Assembly: GCA_021809105.1 (NCBI GenBank)
Contig: JAKBAM010000006.1
Location: forward strand, 1-39,932
Direction: 5' to 3'
Length of the DNA: 39,932 bases
Source of the DNA: Actinomycetes bacterium
GTDB taxonomy: Bacteria > Actinomycetota > Acidimicrobiia > Acidimicrobiales > Palsa-688
The notes under the pieces are model-generated. The model was given only the letters and a program-made list of their open reading frames with translations. It did no database searches and was not told the DNA's origin. Shown here piece after piece: positions 261-30,170 of the stretch (positions within the stretch are counted from its first letter, which is position 1; each line of letters begins with the position of its first letter). Position numbers and translations under genes: made by a program.

Positions 261-764
261 ATGGACGGTTCGGTGCAGGACGATAAGGTCGCGGCATTGG
301 AGGAGCGCGTCCGGGCCTTGGAGGATCAGTTGGCGGTGTGCCGCCTGATCAGCATATGGGGACCGGCGGCCGACACTGGTAACGGGCAGGCTGCCTCGTC
401 GATCTGGACTGATGACGCAGTGCTCCAAACGGAGACGGGACAGCTCGAGGGCGCGCCGGCCATCGGAGCGATGATCGAAGGCGCCGGCCAGGCACAGCTG
501 GTCGAACGTGGATGTGCCCACGTCCACAGCTTTCCCTTGGTCCAGGTCGACGGTGATCGGGCCAGCGCGGTCAACTACGGGCGGGTGTACCTCCACGCCG
601 ACGACGGCTATGAGCTTTGGCGGGTATCGGTGAACAGCTGGGAGTTCCGCCGAACGGGAGAAAGATGGCGGGTGTCGCGCCGGCAGGTCCACGTCATCGA
701 CGGTGGTCCCGAGGCGCGTGAGCTGCTCGGCCGGGCTGTGGGCGCTGAAGGGCACGCCAGTTGA
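261..764 (+). CDS. SnoaL-like / NTF2-fold protein
   Basis: This 167-residue protein has the layout of the SnoaL-like branch of the NTF2 superfamily. A charged helical start (KVAALEERVRALEDQLAV, residues about 10-27) is followed by alternating strands and helices. These include IWTDDAVLQT near residue 47 and a final antiparallel sheet with SWEFRRTGERWRVSRRQV. Family members are small cone-shaped barrels that act as cyclases, isomerases, dehydratases or unexplained ligand binders. The substrate cannot be read from the sequence. The ATG at 261 follows a purine-rich CAGGGGGTGG. The gene stands alone and converges on the aldo/keto reductase, with a palindromic repeat between them. The fold assignment is fairly sure and the function is unknown. 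Confidence 0.75.
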   Translation: MDGSVQDDKVAALEERVRALEDQLAVCRLISIWGPAADTGNGQAASSIWTDDAVLQTETGQLEGAPAIGAMIEGAGQAQLVERGCAHVHSFPLVQVDGDRASAVNYGRVYLHADDGYELWRVSVNSWEFRRTGERWRVSRRQVHVIDGGPEARELLGRAVGAEGHAS

Positions 765-857
765 CAGTCCGTTCCAAGGGCCGGTGTGGGCCCGCCCGGT
801 TCCAGTAGTTGCCGTCCCTAGCGCTTCGGAGCGCTCGGAGCCTCTCCAACGGTCCAG

Positions 858-881
858 TTGGGTACCGCATAGGTCACCCAA
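858..881. repeat. 24-bp palindromic intergenic element, copy 1
   Basis: The outer arms are TTGGGT (858-863) and ACCCAA (876-881). Read on the minus strand, the element matches the copy at 10440-10463 at 21 of 24 positions, including a shared ATGCGGTACCCAA half and a following CTG. It lies 94 bases after the SnoaL-like stop, between convergent genes. It is a candidate 3'-end hairpin or REP-like repeat. Confidence 0.6.
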
Positions 882-912
882 TGGGTTGTTGCAGGGAACG
901 GGGTGGTTGGGG

Positions 913-1839
913 TCAGGGCTGGGGTGCCAGCGCGTCGACCTCGGCCACTTCCGCCGGGCTGAGCCTCCAGGCGCCGGCGGCCGCGTTGGCGGCGACCTGC
1001 TCCGGCTTGGTGGCGCCGGCAATGACCGACCCTACCCCGGGCTTGGCTATCAACCACGCAAACGCCAGCTCCAAAAGGCTGTGGCCCCTCTCAGCCGCCC
1101 AGCCGGCGAGGGCGTCGACGGCGTCGAAGTTATCGCTGCTCAGCATCCCGCCCATCCGATCACCCCACCGTTGCAGGCGAGTCCCCTCGGGGGGCGCGAC
1201 ATCGCGCTCGTACTTGCCCGTGAGGAGTCCGCTGGCCAGTGGGAAGTACGGCAGGTAGCTGATGCCGAGCCGCTCGCACTCCGGCAGCACATCTGTCTCG
1301 TCGCTTCGGCGGAGGAGGTTGTAGTGGTTCTGCACGCTGACAAAGCGTGCCGATTCCGGCGTTCCCGCGCCCTGCGCGTCGCGCAGTTGCTGGGCGGAGA
1401 AGTTCGAGCAGCCGATCTCCCGCACCTTGCCGGCCGCCACGAGATCGTGGAGTACGGCGAGAGTGTCACCGATTGGAGTGGAAGGATCCGGACGGTGCAG
1501 CTGGTACAGATCGATGCGGTCTGTCCCGAGCTTCTCGAGGCTCCTTTCCACTGCGGCCCGCACGTACTCCGGCCGCGCCCCCCCGGTGTTCTCCTGGCCG
1601 ATTAGCGGGCTGCCGAACTTGGTGGCGATGAGCACGTCGTCACGTCGGGTGCCGAGGGCGCGACCGAGCCGCTCCTCGCTGTCGCCGTACGAGTCTGCAG
1701 TATCGAAGAAGTTGACGCCCGATTCGATGGCGGCGTCCACGACGGGGCCGACCTCGTCCTCGCCCATCAGCAGCCCGAAGTTGTTGGTGCCCAACCCGAC
1801 GACGGTGACTTCGAGTGAACCGACGGTGCGCGTCTGCAT
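913..1839 (-). CDS. Aldo/keto reductase
   Basis: This is a 308-residue, full-length aldo/keto reductase with an (alpha/beta)8 barrel, which would reduce carbonyls with NADPH in the cytoplasm. The catalytic tetrad is visible: D46 and Y51 in FFDTADSYG, K74 in IATKFGSP and H115 in LYQLHRPDP. The C-terminal cofactor-binding segment reads PGVGSVIAGATKPEQVAANA. The overall pattern is that of the oxidoreductase branch related to YhdN and Tas-type proteins. The ATG at 1839 is divergent from mscR across 127 bp, so the two may share a control region. A role in detoxifying aldehydes beside mscR is plausible but inferred; the substrate is unknown. Confidence 0.93.
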   Translation of the reverse strand: MQTRTVGSLEVTVVGLGTNNFGLLMGEDEVGPVVDAAIESGVNFFDTADSYGDSEERLGRALGTRRDDVLIATKFGSPLIGQENTGGARPEYVRAAVERSLEKLGTDRIDLYQLHRPDPSTPIGDTLAVLHDLVAAGKVREIGCSNFSAQQLRDAQGAGTPESARFVSVQNHYNLLRRSDETDVLPECERLGISYLPYFPLASGLLTGKYERDVAPPEGTRLQRWGDRMGGMLSSDNFDAVDALAGWAAERGHSLLELAFAWLIAKPGVGSVIAGATKPEQVAANAAAGAWRLSPAEVAEVDALAPQP

Positions 1840-9102: not shown

Positions 9103-10383
9103 GTGACCGACCTCGACAGCGTCGACTTCTTCCGAGGCGACGAGCTGACCGTTGACCCGTACCCGTACTTCGAGCACCTTCGCCAGAAATGTCCGGTGCA
9201 GCGCGAGCCCCACCACGGCGTGGTGATGGTGACCGGATACCGAGAGGCTGTCTCGGTGTACACCGACCCGGAGACCTTTTCCTCCTGCAACGCGGTCACC
9301 GGCCCATTCCCTGGGTTCCCCGTCCCCCTGGAGGGCTCCGACGTCAGCGAGATCGTCGAGCAGTACCGCGACCAGCTGCCGTTCAGCGACCAGGTCACGA
9401 CCATGGATCCCCCCAAGCACAAGGCCCACCGAGGCCTGCTGATGCGGCTTTTGACCCCGAAGCGCCTCCGGGAGAACGAGGACTTCATGTGGCGCCGGGC
9501 CGACCGGCAGATCGACGAGTTCGTCGGGGATGGGAGGTGCGAGCTGATAAGCGCCTACGCCGGTCCCTTCACTCTGTATGTGATCGCCGACCTCCTTGGC
9601 GTGCCTGAGTCCGACCACGAGTGGTTCCGCAGGGAACTGCAGGGAGGCCACCGGGAGGACCAGTCATTGGGCAGCACCGCTTCGAAGTCCCTCGGTCATT
9701 CGCCGCTGGAGTTCCTCTACGAGAGGCTGACGGGCTACATCGAGGAGCGTCGCCGGGAGCCCCGTGACGACGTCCTGACCGCCCTGTCCACCACGGCATT
9801 CCCCGACGGGTCCATGCCGGAGGTGATCGACGTGGCGCGCGTCGCCGCCAACCTGTTCTCGGCCGGCCAGGAGACCACCGTTCGGCTTCTGGCCGCCGCA
9901 TTGCAGCTGCTCGGAGAACGACCGGACCTACAGGACCTGCTCCGCTCGGACCGTAGCTGCATTCCCGACTTCATCGAGGAATGCTTGCGCTTCGAGAGCC
10001 CGGTCAAGGGAGACTTCCGCTTGGCTCGCCGGGACACCAAGGTTGGGGACATCGACGTCCCGGCCGGGACCACGATCATGGTGCTGAACTCGGCGGCCAA
10101 CCGCGATCCCAACCGATTCGATGACCCCGGTGAGTTCCGGATGGGGCGCGACAATGCGGGCTCCCACCTCACCTTCGGGCGAGGGATCCACGCCTGTCCC
10201 GGAGGCCCGCTCGCCCGCTCCGAGGGCCGCGTGAGCCTCGAGCGGATGCTCGACCGCATGGCCGACATCAAGATCGCGGAACCGGAGCACGGGCCGGCCG
10301 GGGCCCGGCGCTACGAGTACGCCCCGACGTACATACTCAGGGGTCTCCAGAAGCTGCACCTGGAGTTCACGCCGATCGGCTGA
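9103..10383 (+). CDS. Cytochrome P450 (1)
   Basis: This is a soluble bacterial class I P450 of 426 residues. The oxygen-activating I-helix motif is AGQETT (254-259). The ExxR pair is E293/R296 in EECLRF. The haem loop is FGRGIHACPGGPLAR with ligand C365. The N-terminal DPYPYFEHLR and the MDPPKHKAHRGLLMRLLTP segment are standard. It closely resembles P450 (2) at 13.2 kb in the N-terminal SSCN...GPFPGFP segment and the C-terminal YILRGLQKLHLEF, so the two are paralogues. The GTG at 9103 follows GGAGAGG. No ferredoxin or reductase lies nearby, so electrons come from elsewhere. The substrate is unknown; steroid, terpenoid or fatty acid hydroxylation are all possible. Confidence 0.95.
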   Translation: MTDLDSVDFFRGDELTVDPYPYFEHLRQKCPVQREPHHGVVMVTGYREAVSVYTDPETFSSCNAVTGPFPGFPVPLEGSDVSEIVEQYRDQLPFSDQVTTMDPPKHKAHRGLLMRLLTPKRLRENEDFMWRRADRQIDEFVGDGRCELISAYAGPFTLYVIADLLGVPESDHEWFRRELQGGHREDQSLGSTASKSLGHSPLEFLYERLTGYIEERRREPRDDVLTALSTTAFPDGSMPEVIDVARVAANLFSAGQETTVRLLAAALQLLGERPDLQDLLRSDRSCIPDFIEECLRFESPVKGDFRLARRDTKVGDIDVPAGTTIMVLNSAANRDPNRFDDPGEFRMGRDNAGSHLTFGRGIHACPGGPLARSEGRVSLERMLDRMADIKIAEPEHGPAGARRYEYAPTYILRGLQKLHLEFTPIG

Positions 10384-10427: not shown

Positions 10428-10475
10428 TTCAGATGGCAGTTGGGTACCCGATGCGGTACCCAACTGCCACCTGAA
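10428..10475. repeat. Long hairpin containing palindromic element, copy 2
   Basis: Inverted arms of about 21 bases with one mismatch flank a 6-base loop (CGATGC, 10449-10454). The core arms GGCAGTTGGGTACC and GGTACCCAACTGCC are perfect. It lies 45 bases after the P450 stop and has no T-run. The central 24 bp (10440-10463) is shared with the elements near 858 and 29630. The rest of the 10384-10663 gap shows no gene. It could act as a terminator or mRNA 3'-end stabiliser, or be a REP-like repeat. Confidence 0.7.
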
Positions 10476-10953: not shown

Positions 10954-12423
10954 TCAGGCCATGACCAGGGCCGCTTCGCTGTCCACGACCTCGTCGCGCC
11001 CAGCGCGGATCAGCAGGAGGGTGGACGCGAGCCCGACGGCCAGGATCACGGCGCTGAAGACGAATGCGGTGGTGTAGCCGTGGACGAGGCCGATGGCAGT
11101 TGCCCCCCGGTGGGCGACGAGGTAGCTGGCCGTGGCCGAGGCAGCAATGGTGTTGAGCAGCGCGGTGCCGAGTGAGCCACCGACCTGCTGTGTGGTGTTG
11201 ACCAGGGCGCTCGCGACCCCGGCGTCGTGGTCGGCGACACCTATGAGGGCCGTGCTGCTGAGCGGCACGAAGACCAGTCCCATGCCTACGCTCATGATGA
11301 TCTCGGCAGGCAGCACGTGGATTGCGTAGCTCGATTCCACCGCCAGCTGGGTGAACCACACCATCCCGAGGGTTGCCATGGCTAGACCGGCTGCCATCAG
11401 GTTCCGGGGGCCGAACCGGGGTAGGAGGCTGCTGGCCAGCCCTGCGCTCACAATGATGCCGAGCGAGAACGGCAGGAAGGCGAAGCCGCTCTTGAGTGCC
11501 GAGTAATGAAGCGTGCCTTGCAGGTAATAGGTGAGGAACAGGAACATTCCGAACAGGGCGGACCCGACCAGCAGCGATGCCAGGAACGACCCGCCCCGGT
11601 TGCGATCCAGCACCACTCGCAGTGGCAGCAAAGGGTGCGAGCTGCGCACCTCGATGAGCACGAACGAGGCGAGGAGGATGATCGCCGCCGCCAGGAGGGC
11701 GATCGTGGTCGACGAGGCCCAGCCGTCGGTCTCGGCCTTGGTGAAACCGTAGACGAGAGCTACAAGTCCGAGGGTCACGGTGACCGCGCCGGGCACGTCG
11801 TAATGAGCCCGGCCCTCGGCCCTGCTCTCACGCACGACCCGAGTGGCGGCGAAGGCTGCCCCGAGCGCTACGGGCACGTTGACCAGCAGGCACCAGCGCC
11901 ACGAGGCGTATTGGGTCAACAGGCCGCCGAGCACCAGGCCGATGGCGGCGCCCCCGCCGGCGATACCGCCGTAGACACCGAAGGCGCGGGCGCGCTCGCG
12001 CGGCTCGGTGAAGGTCACGGTGAGCAGTGACAGGGCGGCGGGAGCCATCAGCGCCGCGAACGCCCCCTGTAGGGCACGGGCTCCGAAGAGCAGTGCGGAG
12101 TTGGGGGCGAGGCCCCCGAGGGCCGATGACGCCGCGAAGCCGATGAGCCCGACCACGAAGACCCGCTTGCGGCCCAGGTAGTCGGAGATGCGACCGCCGA
12201 GCAACAGCAGCCCACCGAAGGCGAGGGTGTAGGCGGTCACGACCCACTGGCGGTCGGCGTTGGAGATGTGGAGGGCGCGCTGGGCCGAGGGCAGGGCTAT
12301 GTTGACGATCGACGCGTCGAGCACGATCATCAGCTGGGAGATGGCGATCACGACCAGCGCCAGCCAGCGCTTGGAGTCGGGAGCCGCAGGGGCGTCGACT
12401 TGTTCGAGTTGGGGCAGGCTCAT
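10954..12423 (-). CDS. MFS drug-efflux transporter, DHA2 (EmrB/QacA) type
   Basis: The 489-residue membrane protein has about 14 hydrophobic segments, typical of proton-coupled DHA2 exporters. It opens with RWLALVVIAISQLMIVLDAS and NIALPSAQRALHIS, the usual DHA2 first helix. It has the motif-A loop GGRISDYLGRKRVF and the helix-5 region VYGGIAGGGAAIGLVLGG. The gene starts 43 bp after the stop of the TetR gene on the same strand, and a near-perfect operator sits upstream of that TetR gene, so the pair is probably an autoregulated efflux module. Substrates are not predictable. It lies between P450 genes but its regulator makes it look like an independent drug- or metabolite-responsive unit. Confidence 0.93.
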   Translation of the reverse strand: MSLPQLEQVDAPAAPDSKRWLALVVIAISQLMIVLDASIVNIALPSAQRALHISNADRQWVVTAYTLAFGGLLLLGGRISDYLGRKRVFVVGLIGFAASSALGGLAPNSALLFGARALQGAFAALMAPAALSLLTVTFTEPRERARAFGVYGGIAGGGAAIGLVLGGLLTQYASWRWCLLVNVPVALGAAFAATRVVRESRAEGRAHYDVPGAVTVTLGLVALVYGFTKAETDGWASSTTIALLAAAIILLASFVLIEVRSSHPLLPLRVVLDRNRGGSFLASLLVGSALFGMFLFLTYYLQGTLHYSALKSGFAFLPFSLGIIVSAGLASSLLPRFGPRNLMAAGLAMATLGMVWFTQLAVESSYAIHVLPAEIIMSVGMGLVFVPLSSTALIGVADHDAGVASALVNTTQQVGGSLGTALLNTIAASATASYLVAHRGATAIGLVHGYTTAFVFSAVILAVGLASTLLLIRAGRDEVVDSEAALVMA

Positions 12424-23160: not shown

Positions 23161-23203
23161 CGCTGCGCGTTTCGTGTGAGACGCTGACACAAAACGCGCA
23201 GCG
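23161..23203. terminator. Long hairpin between two minus-strand genes
   Basis: Arms of 17 bases (23161-23177 and 23187-23203) with one mismatch enclose a 9-base loop. Each arm contains GCTGCGCGTTT or its complement. It begins 15 bases after the stop of the nitroreductase-like gene on the minus strand. No T-run follows, so intrinsic termination is uncertain; mRNA stabilisation or an operator for the downstream SDR are alternatives. Confidence 0.45.
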
Positions 23204-27225: not shown

Positions 27226-27272
27226 GGCGCCACGGTAGCCAGCGGCGTGGCGGGGACCACGCGGTGTTTGGA

Positions 27273-27308
27273 CATCAGAAACCCGTGCCCCCGTGCGGGT
27301 TACTGATG
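27273..27308. repeat. Hairpin between divergent bPH2 and ada/alkA genes
   Basis: Arms CATCAGAAACCCG and CGGGTTACTGATG pair with a single mismatch around a 10-base loop rich in C. It sits 47 bases upstream of the small bPH2 start and 74 bases upstream of the ada/alkA start. It may be a binding site or a leader-RNA structure for either gene. Confidence 0.55.
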
Positions 27309-27382
27309 GACGAAGCGCTAGGGTCAGCTCGATGTCGGAATTCCGCTAGTGCGGGCCCGCGCCGTGGGCCACACTGCCAGGC

Positions 27383-28967: not shown

Positions 28968-29480
28968 GTGACATCTCGCAACCACATGGAAGTCGACAGC
29001 CCGGTCGGCCCGCTCACCCTCGTAGCGGAAGAAGGGGCCCTTTGTGGCTTGTACATGCAACTCCAGCGGCACCGACCCGACGATGGAAGGTTTGGATCGC
29101 CGGCGCCCGAGGGCCTGGAGGTCGTAGCGGAGCAGCTCGGGGAGTACTTCGCCGGCGAGCGCCGGGACTTCGACCTCACGCTTCGGGCTGCAGGGAGCGC
29201 CTTCCAGCATGAGGTGTGGACCGCTCTGCGCCAGATTCCCTACGGCGAGACCGAGTCCTACGGTGATCTGGCGGCCCGGATCGGACGCCCTGGGGCGGCC
29301 CGGGCCGTCGGCCTGGCCAACGGCCGCAATCCCATCAGCATCGTCGTCCCTTGCCACCGCGTCATCGGCGCGGACGGCAGGCTCGCTGGCTATGGCGGGG
29401 GCTCCGAGCGCAAACGGGCTCTCCTCGACCTCGAGCGGACCACCGCCGGCACCGGTGGGCCGGCGCTCTTCGTTCGCTGA
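28968..29480 (+). CDS. ogt: Methylated-DNA-[protein]-cysteine S-methyltransferase
   Basis: This 170-residue protein removes methyl groups from O6-methylguanine in a suicide reaction. The active-site motif VVPCHRVIGADG is intact. It is preceded by the DNA-binding helix region YGETESYGDLAARIGRPGAA and AVGLANGRNPISI, and followed by GRLAGYGGGSERKRALLDLE. The GTG at 28968 has AGGAG six bases upstream. It lies 25 bases after the Ada/AlkA gene, so the two make an alkylation-damage operon. The stop TGA is the start of the first unit of a 14-bp tandem repeat. Confidence 0.95.
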   Translation: MTSRNHMEVDSPVGPLTLVAEEGALCGLYMQLQRHRPDDGRFGSPAPEGLEVVAEQLGEYFAGERRDFDLTLRAAGSAFQHEVWTALRQIPYGETESYGDLAARIGRPGAARAVGLANGRNPISIVVPCHRVIGADGRLAGYGGGSERKRALLDLERTTAGTGGPALFVR

Positions 29481-29573
29481 CGCCACGCGGCTGACGCCAC
29501 GCGGCTAACGCCACGCGGCTGACGCCACGCGGCTAACGCCACGCGGCTAACGCCACGCGGCTGACGCCACGCG
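29477..29573. repeat. 14-bp tandem repeat, seven copies, beginning in the ogt stop codon
   Basis: The unit is CTGACGCCACGCGG or CTAACGCCACGCGG, repeated seven times with only the G/A change (order G,G,A,G,A,A,G); the last unit lacks one base. The first unit contains the ogt stop TGA. Since the period is not a multiple of three, each unit puts a TGA or TAA in a different frame. It probably arose by slippage. Confidence 0.9.
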
Positions 29574-29629
29574 CAACGCTGCGGCGCGGCCCCGGCTGGG
29601 GGCGGCCCCGGCGCCGATCCAATGTCCAC

Positions 29630-29653
29630 TTGGATACCGTATGTGTCATCCAA
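29630..29653. repeat. 24-bp palindromic intergenic element, copy 3
   Basis: The arms TTGGAT and ATCCAA enclose a CCGTATG centre. It matches the 10440-10463 copy at 17 of 24 positions, and the G-to-A change in the left arm is matched by C-to-T in the right arm. It is followed by CTGCACCTTGAAG, like CTGCCACCTGAAG after copy 2. It lies between convergent genes, 150 bases after ogt. Confidence 0.55.
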
Positions 29654-29678
29654 CTGCACCTTGAAGGCGTCGCGCTCT

Positions 29679-30170
29679 TCAGTGCAGGCGGGAAGCCAGC
29701 GATCGGACCAGGAGGTCGATCTCGACGGCGGCGGCGGTGAAGTGCGCCACGTCACCCCCGCCGGGGTCCACCACCTCCTCCCAAGGTTCGAGCTCTACAG
29801 CAGCCAGGCACAAGTCGGCTACCCGCCCTGGGAGCGGCCCGGTCGGGGCAAGGTCCCGTGCCAGCCGGCGCAGGGTGGCAGTGCGCGCTGCGGCGTCAGG
29901 GTGCTCCCGACGGACCCAGGCGACGTGCTCGGGCGCCAGACCGATGACCAGCGTGGCCCGCTCGAGATGGGAGCGGCTGGCTTGACGGCTCCGATGGCTG
30001 CCCGGCTCCCGGCCTATGGCTGTCAGCGCGGCTCGGGTACGGGAGCTGACCGGCTGTCCTTCGACGGTCAGGGTCCCTGCGGTCTCCACCGCAACCGTTG
30101 GTGCAACCGCAGCCAAGACGGCGCCCGCCATCACCGACCGCGCCGCGTTGCCGGTGCAGAGGAACAACAC
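29679..30170 (-). CDS. Low-molecular-weight protein-tyrosine-phosphatase/arsenate reductase fold
   Basis: The 163-residue protein starts with the phosphate loop CTGNAARS (C-X5-R), directly after VLFL, as in LMW phosphatases and ArsC-type arsenate reductases. Other features are GTLTVEGQPVSSRTRAAL, a helix with RQASRSHLERATLVIGLAPE, and a late VVDPGGGD that may supply the catalytic Asp. The best start is GTG at 30170; no ribosome site is seen, and the frame is open far upstream to 30602, so a longer form is possible. It lies 95 bases after the amidohydrolase on the same strand. Whether it acts on phosphotyrosine or arsenate cannot be told. Confidence 0.8.
   Translation of the reverse strand: MLFLCTGNAARSVMAGAVLAAVAPTVAVETAGTLTVEGQPVSSRTRAALTAIGREPGSHRSRQASRSHLERATLVIGLAPEHVAWVRREHPDAAARTATLRRLARDLAPTGPLPGRVADLCLAAVELEPWEEVVDPGGGDVAHFTAAAVEIDLLVRSLASRLH

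Follow-up and report, generated by a model that had tools for sequence, protein, structure and literature searches.

How the ends of messages are defined between genes that face each other is poorly understood in high-GC actinobacteria with few U-tracts. The window analysed here, a 39,932-nt stretch of actinobacterial DNA, raises this question at one locus in particular, where a 48-bp palindrome lies between two converging genes and belongs to a family (family A) with three copies in the window (Table 1). What kind of element is this, and what might it do there? The initial annotation saw in it either a REP-type repeat or a dispersed regulatory or mRNA 3'-end element.

Table 1. Palindromic elements of the window, with strand, core and setting
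Element	Position	Strand	Core	Description and neighbouring genes
Family A copy 1	846..893	(-)	858-881	Most diverged among the three; between genes 261-764 (+) and 913-1839 (-)
Family A copy 2	10428..10475	(+)	10440-10463	Near-perfect 48-bp palindrome; between genes 9103-10383 (+) and 10954-12423 (-)
Family A copy 3	29618..29665	(-)	29630-29653	Between genes 28986-29480 (+) and 29679-30170 (-)
Family B copy	27267..27314	(+)	AACCCGTGC-NNNN-GTGCGGGTT	48 bp, as in family A; between divergent genes by gene calls
Candidate type C	23161..23203	(.)		20-bp arms, 3-nt loop

The palindrome in the window

All three annotated copies proved real. The exact TTGGGTACC-N6-GGTACCCAA palindrome is found in the core of copy 2 only; the core of copy 1 has two mismatches to it, and that of copy 3 reads TTGGATACC...GTCATCCAA, a G-to-A change that is balanced, as had been claimed, by C-to-T in the other arm. 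The CTG..ACC flank described as common to the copies is present in copies 2 and 3 and lacking from copy 1. Cores begin 93, 56 and 149 bases after the genes ending at 764, 10383 and 29480, close to the 57–150 bases past plus-strand stops originally given, and our gene calls put all three copies, rather than two, between convergent genes. When one base is added on each side, copy 2 has 22-base arms with 95% complementarity. A tandem repeat with a unit of about 14 bases (gccacgcggctaac-like) occupies the window at about 29480-29575, between the gene end and copy 3, and short tandem runs also adjoin the family A copies at loci L020 and L037.

Copy number and anatomy of family A

A pattern search of the genome to which the window belongs (G000; 3.65 Mb in 118 contigs, 92% complete), with up to three mismatches allowed, returned 16 sites, compared to 2 for the reversed control pattern. 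A covariance model built from 16 family A copies (R1) gave 62 two-strand matches in G000, corresponding to at least 32 places and 31 distinct sequences, with scoring done for 150 of 993 candidates. Family A is thus present beyond chance, both by its excess over the control sites and by its 32 places under the covariance model. The claim was to fall if the genome held no further copies; many were found, and this test did not refute it. One identical family A sequence sits at two contig ends, L035 (end of C65) and L036 (start of C94), which suggests that these contigs overlap there.

The consensus of the family, TTCAGGTGGCAG-TTGGATGACnCATGCGGTACCCAA-CTGCCACCTGAA, is a 48-bp imperfect palindrome. 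Its central 24 bases are conserved in G000, including positions that are not Watson-Crick pairs (A.C in 16/31 sequences, G.T in 24/31, A.G in 21/31), and in the outer 12 bases pairs are exchanged for different pairs at the same columns. For the 16 aligned copies, 82.1% of cells are paired, 26 cells carry double changes and the covariation score is 0.200, values each reached by none of 500 shuffles. Two weaker measures fell within the shuffled range (pairs with a double change, 62/500 as high; further pair types, 11/500). Pairing falls to 22–45% when the partner is slid by 1–3 columns. With three rows added from the sister species (G001), double-change cells number 48 (0/500 shuffles as high), and the weaker measures stand at 20/500 and 64/500, respectively. 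One caveat here is that related sequences inflate these covariation tests, for family A as well as for family B below. The 48-bp edge is visible when the two families are pooled: the outermost pair is complementary in 34/46 cases and the next one outward in 14/46, with 8 to 23/46 beyond.

A second family with the same layout

Hairpins with a different core surfaced in a palindrome search of G000 contigs, and we refer to these as family B. The core pattern, at up to one mismatch, matched G000 at 33 sites (20 of them exact), compared to 5 for the control. Eighteen of the 20 exact matches were read, and paired arms were seen in 15 and not in the other 3. The family B alignment (15 G000 plus 3 G001 rows), from which a second covariance model (R2) was made, has the layout TTCAGRCATCASW-AACCCGTGC-NNNN-GTGCGGGTT-WSTGATGYCTGAA. 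Pairing holds in 93.7% of its cells and double changes are present in 40; on each of the five measures the alignment surpasses every one of the 500 shuffles. R2 places family B at no fewer than 18 positions in G000, with 91 of 1582 candidates scored. The core retains mismatch-type pairs (U.G in 14/18 rows, G.U in 15/18). Families A and B share a layout, in that both have variable arms of 12–13 bases, a conserved core and a small loop, and their cores are unlike. The window contains one family B hairpin, which was missing from the initial annotation's listing for this finding. It also contains a candidate third type (type C, GCGnTTCGTGYGAG-nnn-CTSACACAAAnCGC), for which two copies were seen in the part of G000 scanned by script, one in the window and one in L085 at ~11685 (contig C108).

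In family A, arm types recur as multi-base blocks (AGGTGGCA in 18/62 arms, AGGGTCCA in 7/62), and 11/31 elements have unlike arms (at least 3/8 bases differ), with 13/22 of such arms exactly matching an arm in another copy. Arms differing by at most 1/8 bases occur in 14/31 elements, compared to a shuffled mean of 7.8 and maximum of 15 (2000 shuffles). The recurrent blocks and the unlike-arm elements suggest exchange or template switching. Template switching, which has been proposed as a creator and keeper of hairpin stems (PMC8794818, in the accessible text), would at replication copy one arm onto the other, so that stem pairing could be kept by this process instead of by selection for a hairpin. 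We consider this explanation doubtful: the recurrent core mismatches of both families should have been corrected too, and the bias toward convergent genes, described below, is left unexplained by it.

Gene context in G000

Genes were called by a simple codon-usage script, with a retrained gene model used for context, and hence the counts that follow depend on the gene caller (family A site L021, for example, is co-directional under the first gene model and convergent under the retrained one). Six of the 32 family A places are flanked by a gene on a single side, and 2 more fall within called genes. The remaining 24 comprise 10 convergent, 10 co-directional and 4 divergent cases, and 3 of these 24 copies overlap a called gene end by 8–20 bases. 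For family B (n = 15), 9 are convergent, 2 co-directional and 4 divergent; the co-directional copy L077 overlaps a called gene, and the convergent copy L291 extends 15 bases into the end of a gene. Among 271 background gaps of the 375-kb contig C108, 44 are convergent, 182 co-directional and 45 divergent. Relative to this background, the convergent excess has Fisher P values of 0.005 (A), 0.0003 (B) and 0.00002 (both). Both families are mostly intergenic, and they are over-represented where two genes end face to face. Divergent gaps are not depleted in G000 (A 4/24, B 4/15, compared to 45/271), which counts against a 3'-end reading and a REP-like one alike. Judged by eye, the canonical strand of family B shows no preference with respect to the nearer gene.

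Long palindromes (score 12 or more) were found in 6/98 convergent, 9/361 co-directional and 4/101 divergent gaps examined. A general requirement for a long palindrome at convergent gaps was rejected, since only those 6/98 carry one.

A proposed hairpin for two facing transcripts

As the leading reading, held at about even odds, we infer that A and B act as two-way mRNA 3'-end hairpins, which would be transcribed, take part in end formation and protect RNA. A stem of ~20 bp would form in transcripts coming from either direction, since a palindrome folds on both strands. Once RNA polymerase had been released, by Rho or by U-poor termination, the hairpin would mark the 3' end or shield it from 3' exonucleases, and it would also restrict read-through into the opposing gene.

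Several observations bear on this proposal. Mean predicted RNA folding energies lie between -23 and -37 kcal/mol, with both strands counted. The outer stem has similar numbers of G-U and A-C mismatches (24/23 in A, 6/5 in B, 4/5 in G001 B), which is what a need for folding on both strands would predict. These near-equal counts, together with the paired stems and the position between facing genes in two species (see below), fit a hairpin formed by both transcripts. Other observations count against it. In family B one strand is the more stable in 13/15 copies, indicating that the strands are not fully equal, an asymmetry that probably stems from the tandem U.G/G.U pairs. Called genes contain two family A copies and are overlapped by one family B copy, and at three conserved junctions G001 has no element.

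A stable, GC-rich hairpin past stop codons, often between facing genes, is also what a family of canonical intrinsic terminators would offer. Yet the U-tract is absent: downstream 10-mers with at least 5 T number 0/62 for A, 0/30 for B and 0/20 for G001 B (0/112 in total), and the mean T content of the 10 nt past the stem is 1.23, 1.17 and 1.85, respectively, compared to a background of 1.52. We regard this explanation as extremely unlikely, and the missing U-tract weighs on the two-way hairpin as well. A nearer precedent for a two-way 3'-end hairpin comes from Streptomyces, where Term-seq revealed covarying hairpins that surpass those of the other species compared in length and stability and are poorer in U than their counterparts in other bacteria (PMC12207403, in the accessible part of the article). 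Those hairpins resemble A and B in belonging to high-GC actinobacteria and in being long, stable and covarying. The precedent is partial because they still carry 3–4 U in the 10 nt past the stem (same source and extent), compared to ~1.2 T in G000; nor does the accessible part of that article describe them as dispersed sequence families.

A and B offer dozens of naturally occurring, related test sites within a single genus, for which the empty orthologous junctions can serve as controls.

The sister species and the turnover of arms

The sole other genome of the window's genus reached is G001. R1 detected one weak family A place there (E 0.0055), and a palindrome search of G001 stretches gave two further ones. 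A family A model that includes these three G001 copies (R3, threshold E <= 0.01) yielded at least 19 places, with 150 of 2624 candidates scored, of which the weakest may be chance matches. R2 yielded 16 family B places. With genes around the family A copies called using the G000 codon table, 8 of 9 readable copies are convergent and 1 is co-directional, compared to 151 convergent among 836 background gaps; for family B, 10 readable copies comprise 7 convergent and 3 co-directional. Leaving out the three model-training rows of each family, 5/6 (A) and 5/7 (B) are convergent. None of the 19 readable copies in G001 (A+B) is divergent.

In family B, arms and core differ in how well they are kept between the species. 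Arm identity is 76% within G000 (15 copies) and 77% within G001 (10 copies), compared to 39% between the species; the corresponding values for the core are 96%, 93% and 92%. For family A (31 and 9 copies), arms are 63% identical in G000, 74.5% in G001 and 54.5% between species, and the core 86%, 78% and 52.5%. Family A thus shows no core/arm split between species, and the split is a family B result. Family B in this way separates the parts of a hairpin repeat, the core being kept between species and the arms turning over while still paired, and it allows a direct test, in bacteria, of whether hairpins evolve under selection or by template switching.

These values also bear on a DNA-level explanation. 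Positive supercoils concentrate at convergent junctions, and a cruciform or a protein-binding dyad (for gyrase or a nucleoid protein) could be sited where the supercoils of facing genes meet. The lack of strand preference in the outer-stem G-U and A-C counts and the strong core conservation in G000 would suit such a site. A classical dyad operator, however, would cover the core alone, and here the outer arms vary; moreover, the family A core is poorly kept between species, and the recurrent core mismatches would impede cruciform extrusion from the centre. A DNA-level site seems to us quite improbable.

Synteny was compared for 47 element places against 1.19 Mb of G001 (~23% of that genome). 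At 5/47 places the neighbours on both sides are conserved close together in G001, and four of these junctions were aligned. Three aligned junctions keep the gene pair and have no element in G001 (A, C89:33.7 kb; B, C58:62.6 kb and C77:85.8 kb), gain and loss being indistinguishable because the spacers are too diverged for a clean edge. At the fourth (B, C59:46.5 kb), a family B hairpin is present in both species, with cores 94% and arms 42% identical, and the arms resemble those of family B in their own genome (75% in G000, 80% in G001). At the fifth (A, C77:60.1 kb), the neighbours are ~1.5 kb apart in G001, and this junction was left out of the alignment.

Most convergent junctions lack a long palindrome and some conserved ones are empty, and for this reason the main rival to the two-way hairpin is a mobile palindrome, REP-like or MITE-like, spread by some enzyme, without host function and tolerated between convergent genes as the place of least harm. 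Presence or absence at conserved junctions, species-specific family B arms and the lack of divergent copies in G001 all accord with such an element. So does its distribution: two genomes of a single genus carry it at tens of places, compared to 0/23 other genomes of the taxonomic family for A (R1, E <= 0.01) and 0/30 for B (R2, E <= 0.001), in scans with stricter filters and part of the candidates scored. Target-site duplications, on the other hand, show no clear excess at 45 sites (observed and shuffled: >=3 bp, 16 and 13.6; >=4 bp, 6 and 4.7; >=5 bp, 2 and 1.5; >=6 bp, 2 and 0.48). A Y1 transposase is absent from 5 of 6 genomes, the sixth, G000, having a contig-end fragment only; divergent gaps in G000 are not depleted; and paired arms would not be maintained by neutral decay alone. 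On balance we take a tolerated mobile palindrome to be possible and on the unlikely side.

One further idea, to which we give little weight, is a class of self-copying hairpin repeats in which the folded core would prime synthesis over the outer arm, each copying would rewrite one arm and no RAYT transposase would be involved. If this were true, arm sequences would be replaced throughout a genome, and separately in each species, and yet remain paired; the core would stay as it is, uncorrected mismatches included; and the elements so made would come to rest where genes end face to face, as signals for the ends of both messages.

Comparison with known elements

The annotated picture of a dispersed, structure-conserved repeat associated with 3' ends is supported by the additional copies, by double changes exceeding those of all shuffles and by the convergent excess in two species. 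Membership in the tagged REP super-families, also suggested, is not: there is no GTAG/CGTC tag, the length is 48 rather than 20–40 bp, dimers are lacking and 5/6 genomes have no Y1 transposase.

Traits shared with REP sequences include being dispersed, palindromic, mostly intergenic and often near gene 3' ends, with some species-specific families, and family A is indeed a multi-copy, mainly intergenic palindrome (32 places, 31 sequences, 2/32 in called genes). REPs are 20–40 bp long according to the accessible part of PMC3733652, whereas the elements here measure 48 bp, pairing dropping from 34 to 14/46 at the edge; variable arms around a conserved core are a further trait of A and B that sets them apart. 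The unpaired GTAG or CGTC motif that such REPs carry at one end has no counterpart here, flanking columns 1–5 and 54–58 containing no conserved tetranucleotide in either family A alignment (A1, 16 copies; A2, 18 copies). Inverted dimers, typical of many REP families, were not seen in the fragmented assembly, where the smallest distance between A copies sharing a contig is ~2.3 kb (C49). PF01797 (RAYT/Y1 transposase) was not found in G001, G028, G031, G136 or G052, and no intact RAYT was found in G000, an uncertain absence in a genome 92% complete; a RAYT gene accompanies REPs of the GTAG type, and CGTC REPs are, in the accessible text of PMC3733652, apparently without one. The one IS200/IS605-type TnpA fragment in G000 is cut by a contig end (L054, 1450-1615; end of C89), and the small hairpin upstream of it is unlike A and B.

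Rickettsia palindromic elements are likewise short dispersed palindromes, described in the accessible part of PMC3733652 as interrupting genes, whereas family A lies inside called genes at 2/32 places. Solitary half-words, as in a DNA uptake sequence, were not found among the 20 exact G000 matches to GCGGTAYCCAASTG, 20/20 of which lie at family A places; allowing one mismatch added 15 more, and the three outliers read (L172, L174, L179) have no element. Two other candidates were dropped by eye, namely an integron attC, for which the GTT...AAC order is reversed, and a protein-coding reading of the arms. The RNIE work reportedly defined TRIT, a sequence-conserved terminator motif of Mycobacterium tuberculosis; TRIT would, like A and B, be an actinobacterial gene-end hairpin conserved in sequence. 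In our reading, A and B work like a 3'-end hairpin and are scattered as a REP is, and we file them as neither.

Other genomes and databases

The exact family A consensus had no match in a genome-contig database from which very near genomes may be absent, and R1 had none at E <= 1 in 80 named loci around MFS homologues. At the gathering score, Rfam 15 gave no match in the window and one tRNA alone in 8 related loci. Searches of open-licence papers listed no description of Acidimicrobiales repeats of this sort; a table in the accessible part of the RepRanger paper includes Acidimicrobium ferrooxidans (PMC12306157).

Hairpins of similar size and genome-specific sequence occur in G136 (6 exact-pattern places), G052 (1), G028 (2), G031 (1) and G038 (5 R2 matches). 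The first four genomes have CAGTTG...CAACTG in common, at the same place as in many family A copies, and their hairpins are possibly homologous to family A. An order-wide pattern search used a gap range of 8–14, shorter than the 16 of family A, and even so picked up the family in G136 and a single copy in G052; at most of the remaining loci, judged by eye, the palindrome did not extend past the pattern itself. G136 has another family of long palindromes, with three copies within the 218,133 bases scanned (L138 at 9222 and 19823, L141 at 11740; two have TTCTGGTCGTGA-like arms and the third is related). In G038, a genome from a different family of this order, hairpins with the form GTTCTGGTCCGG..AATCCCGCGC-nnTG-GCGCGGGATT lie near called gene edges in mixed contexts (L338, L342, L344, L347 and L350).
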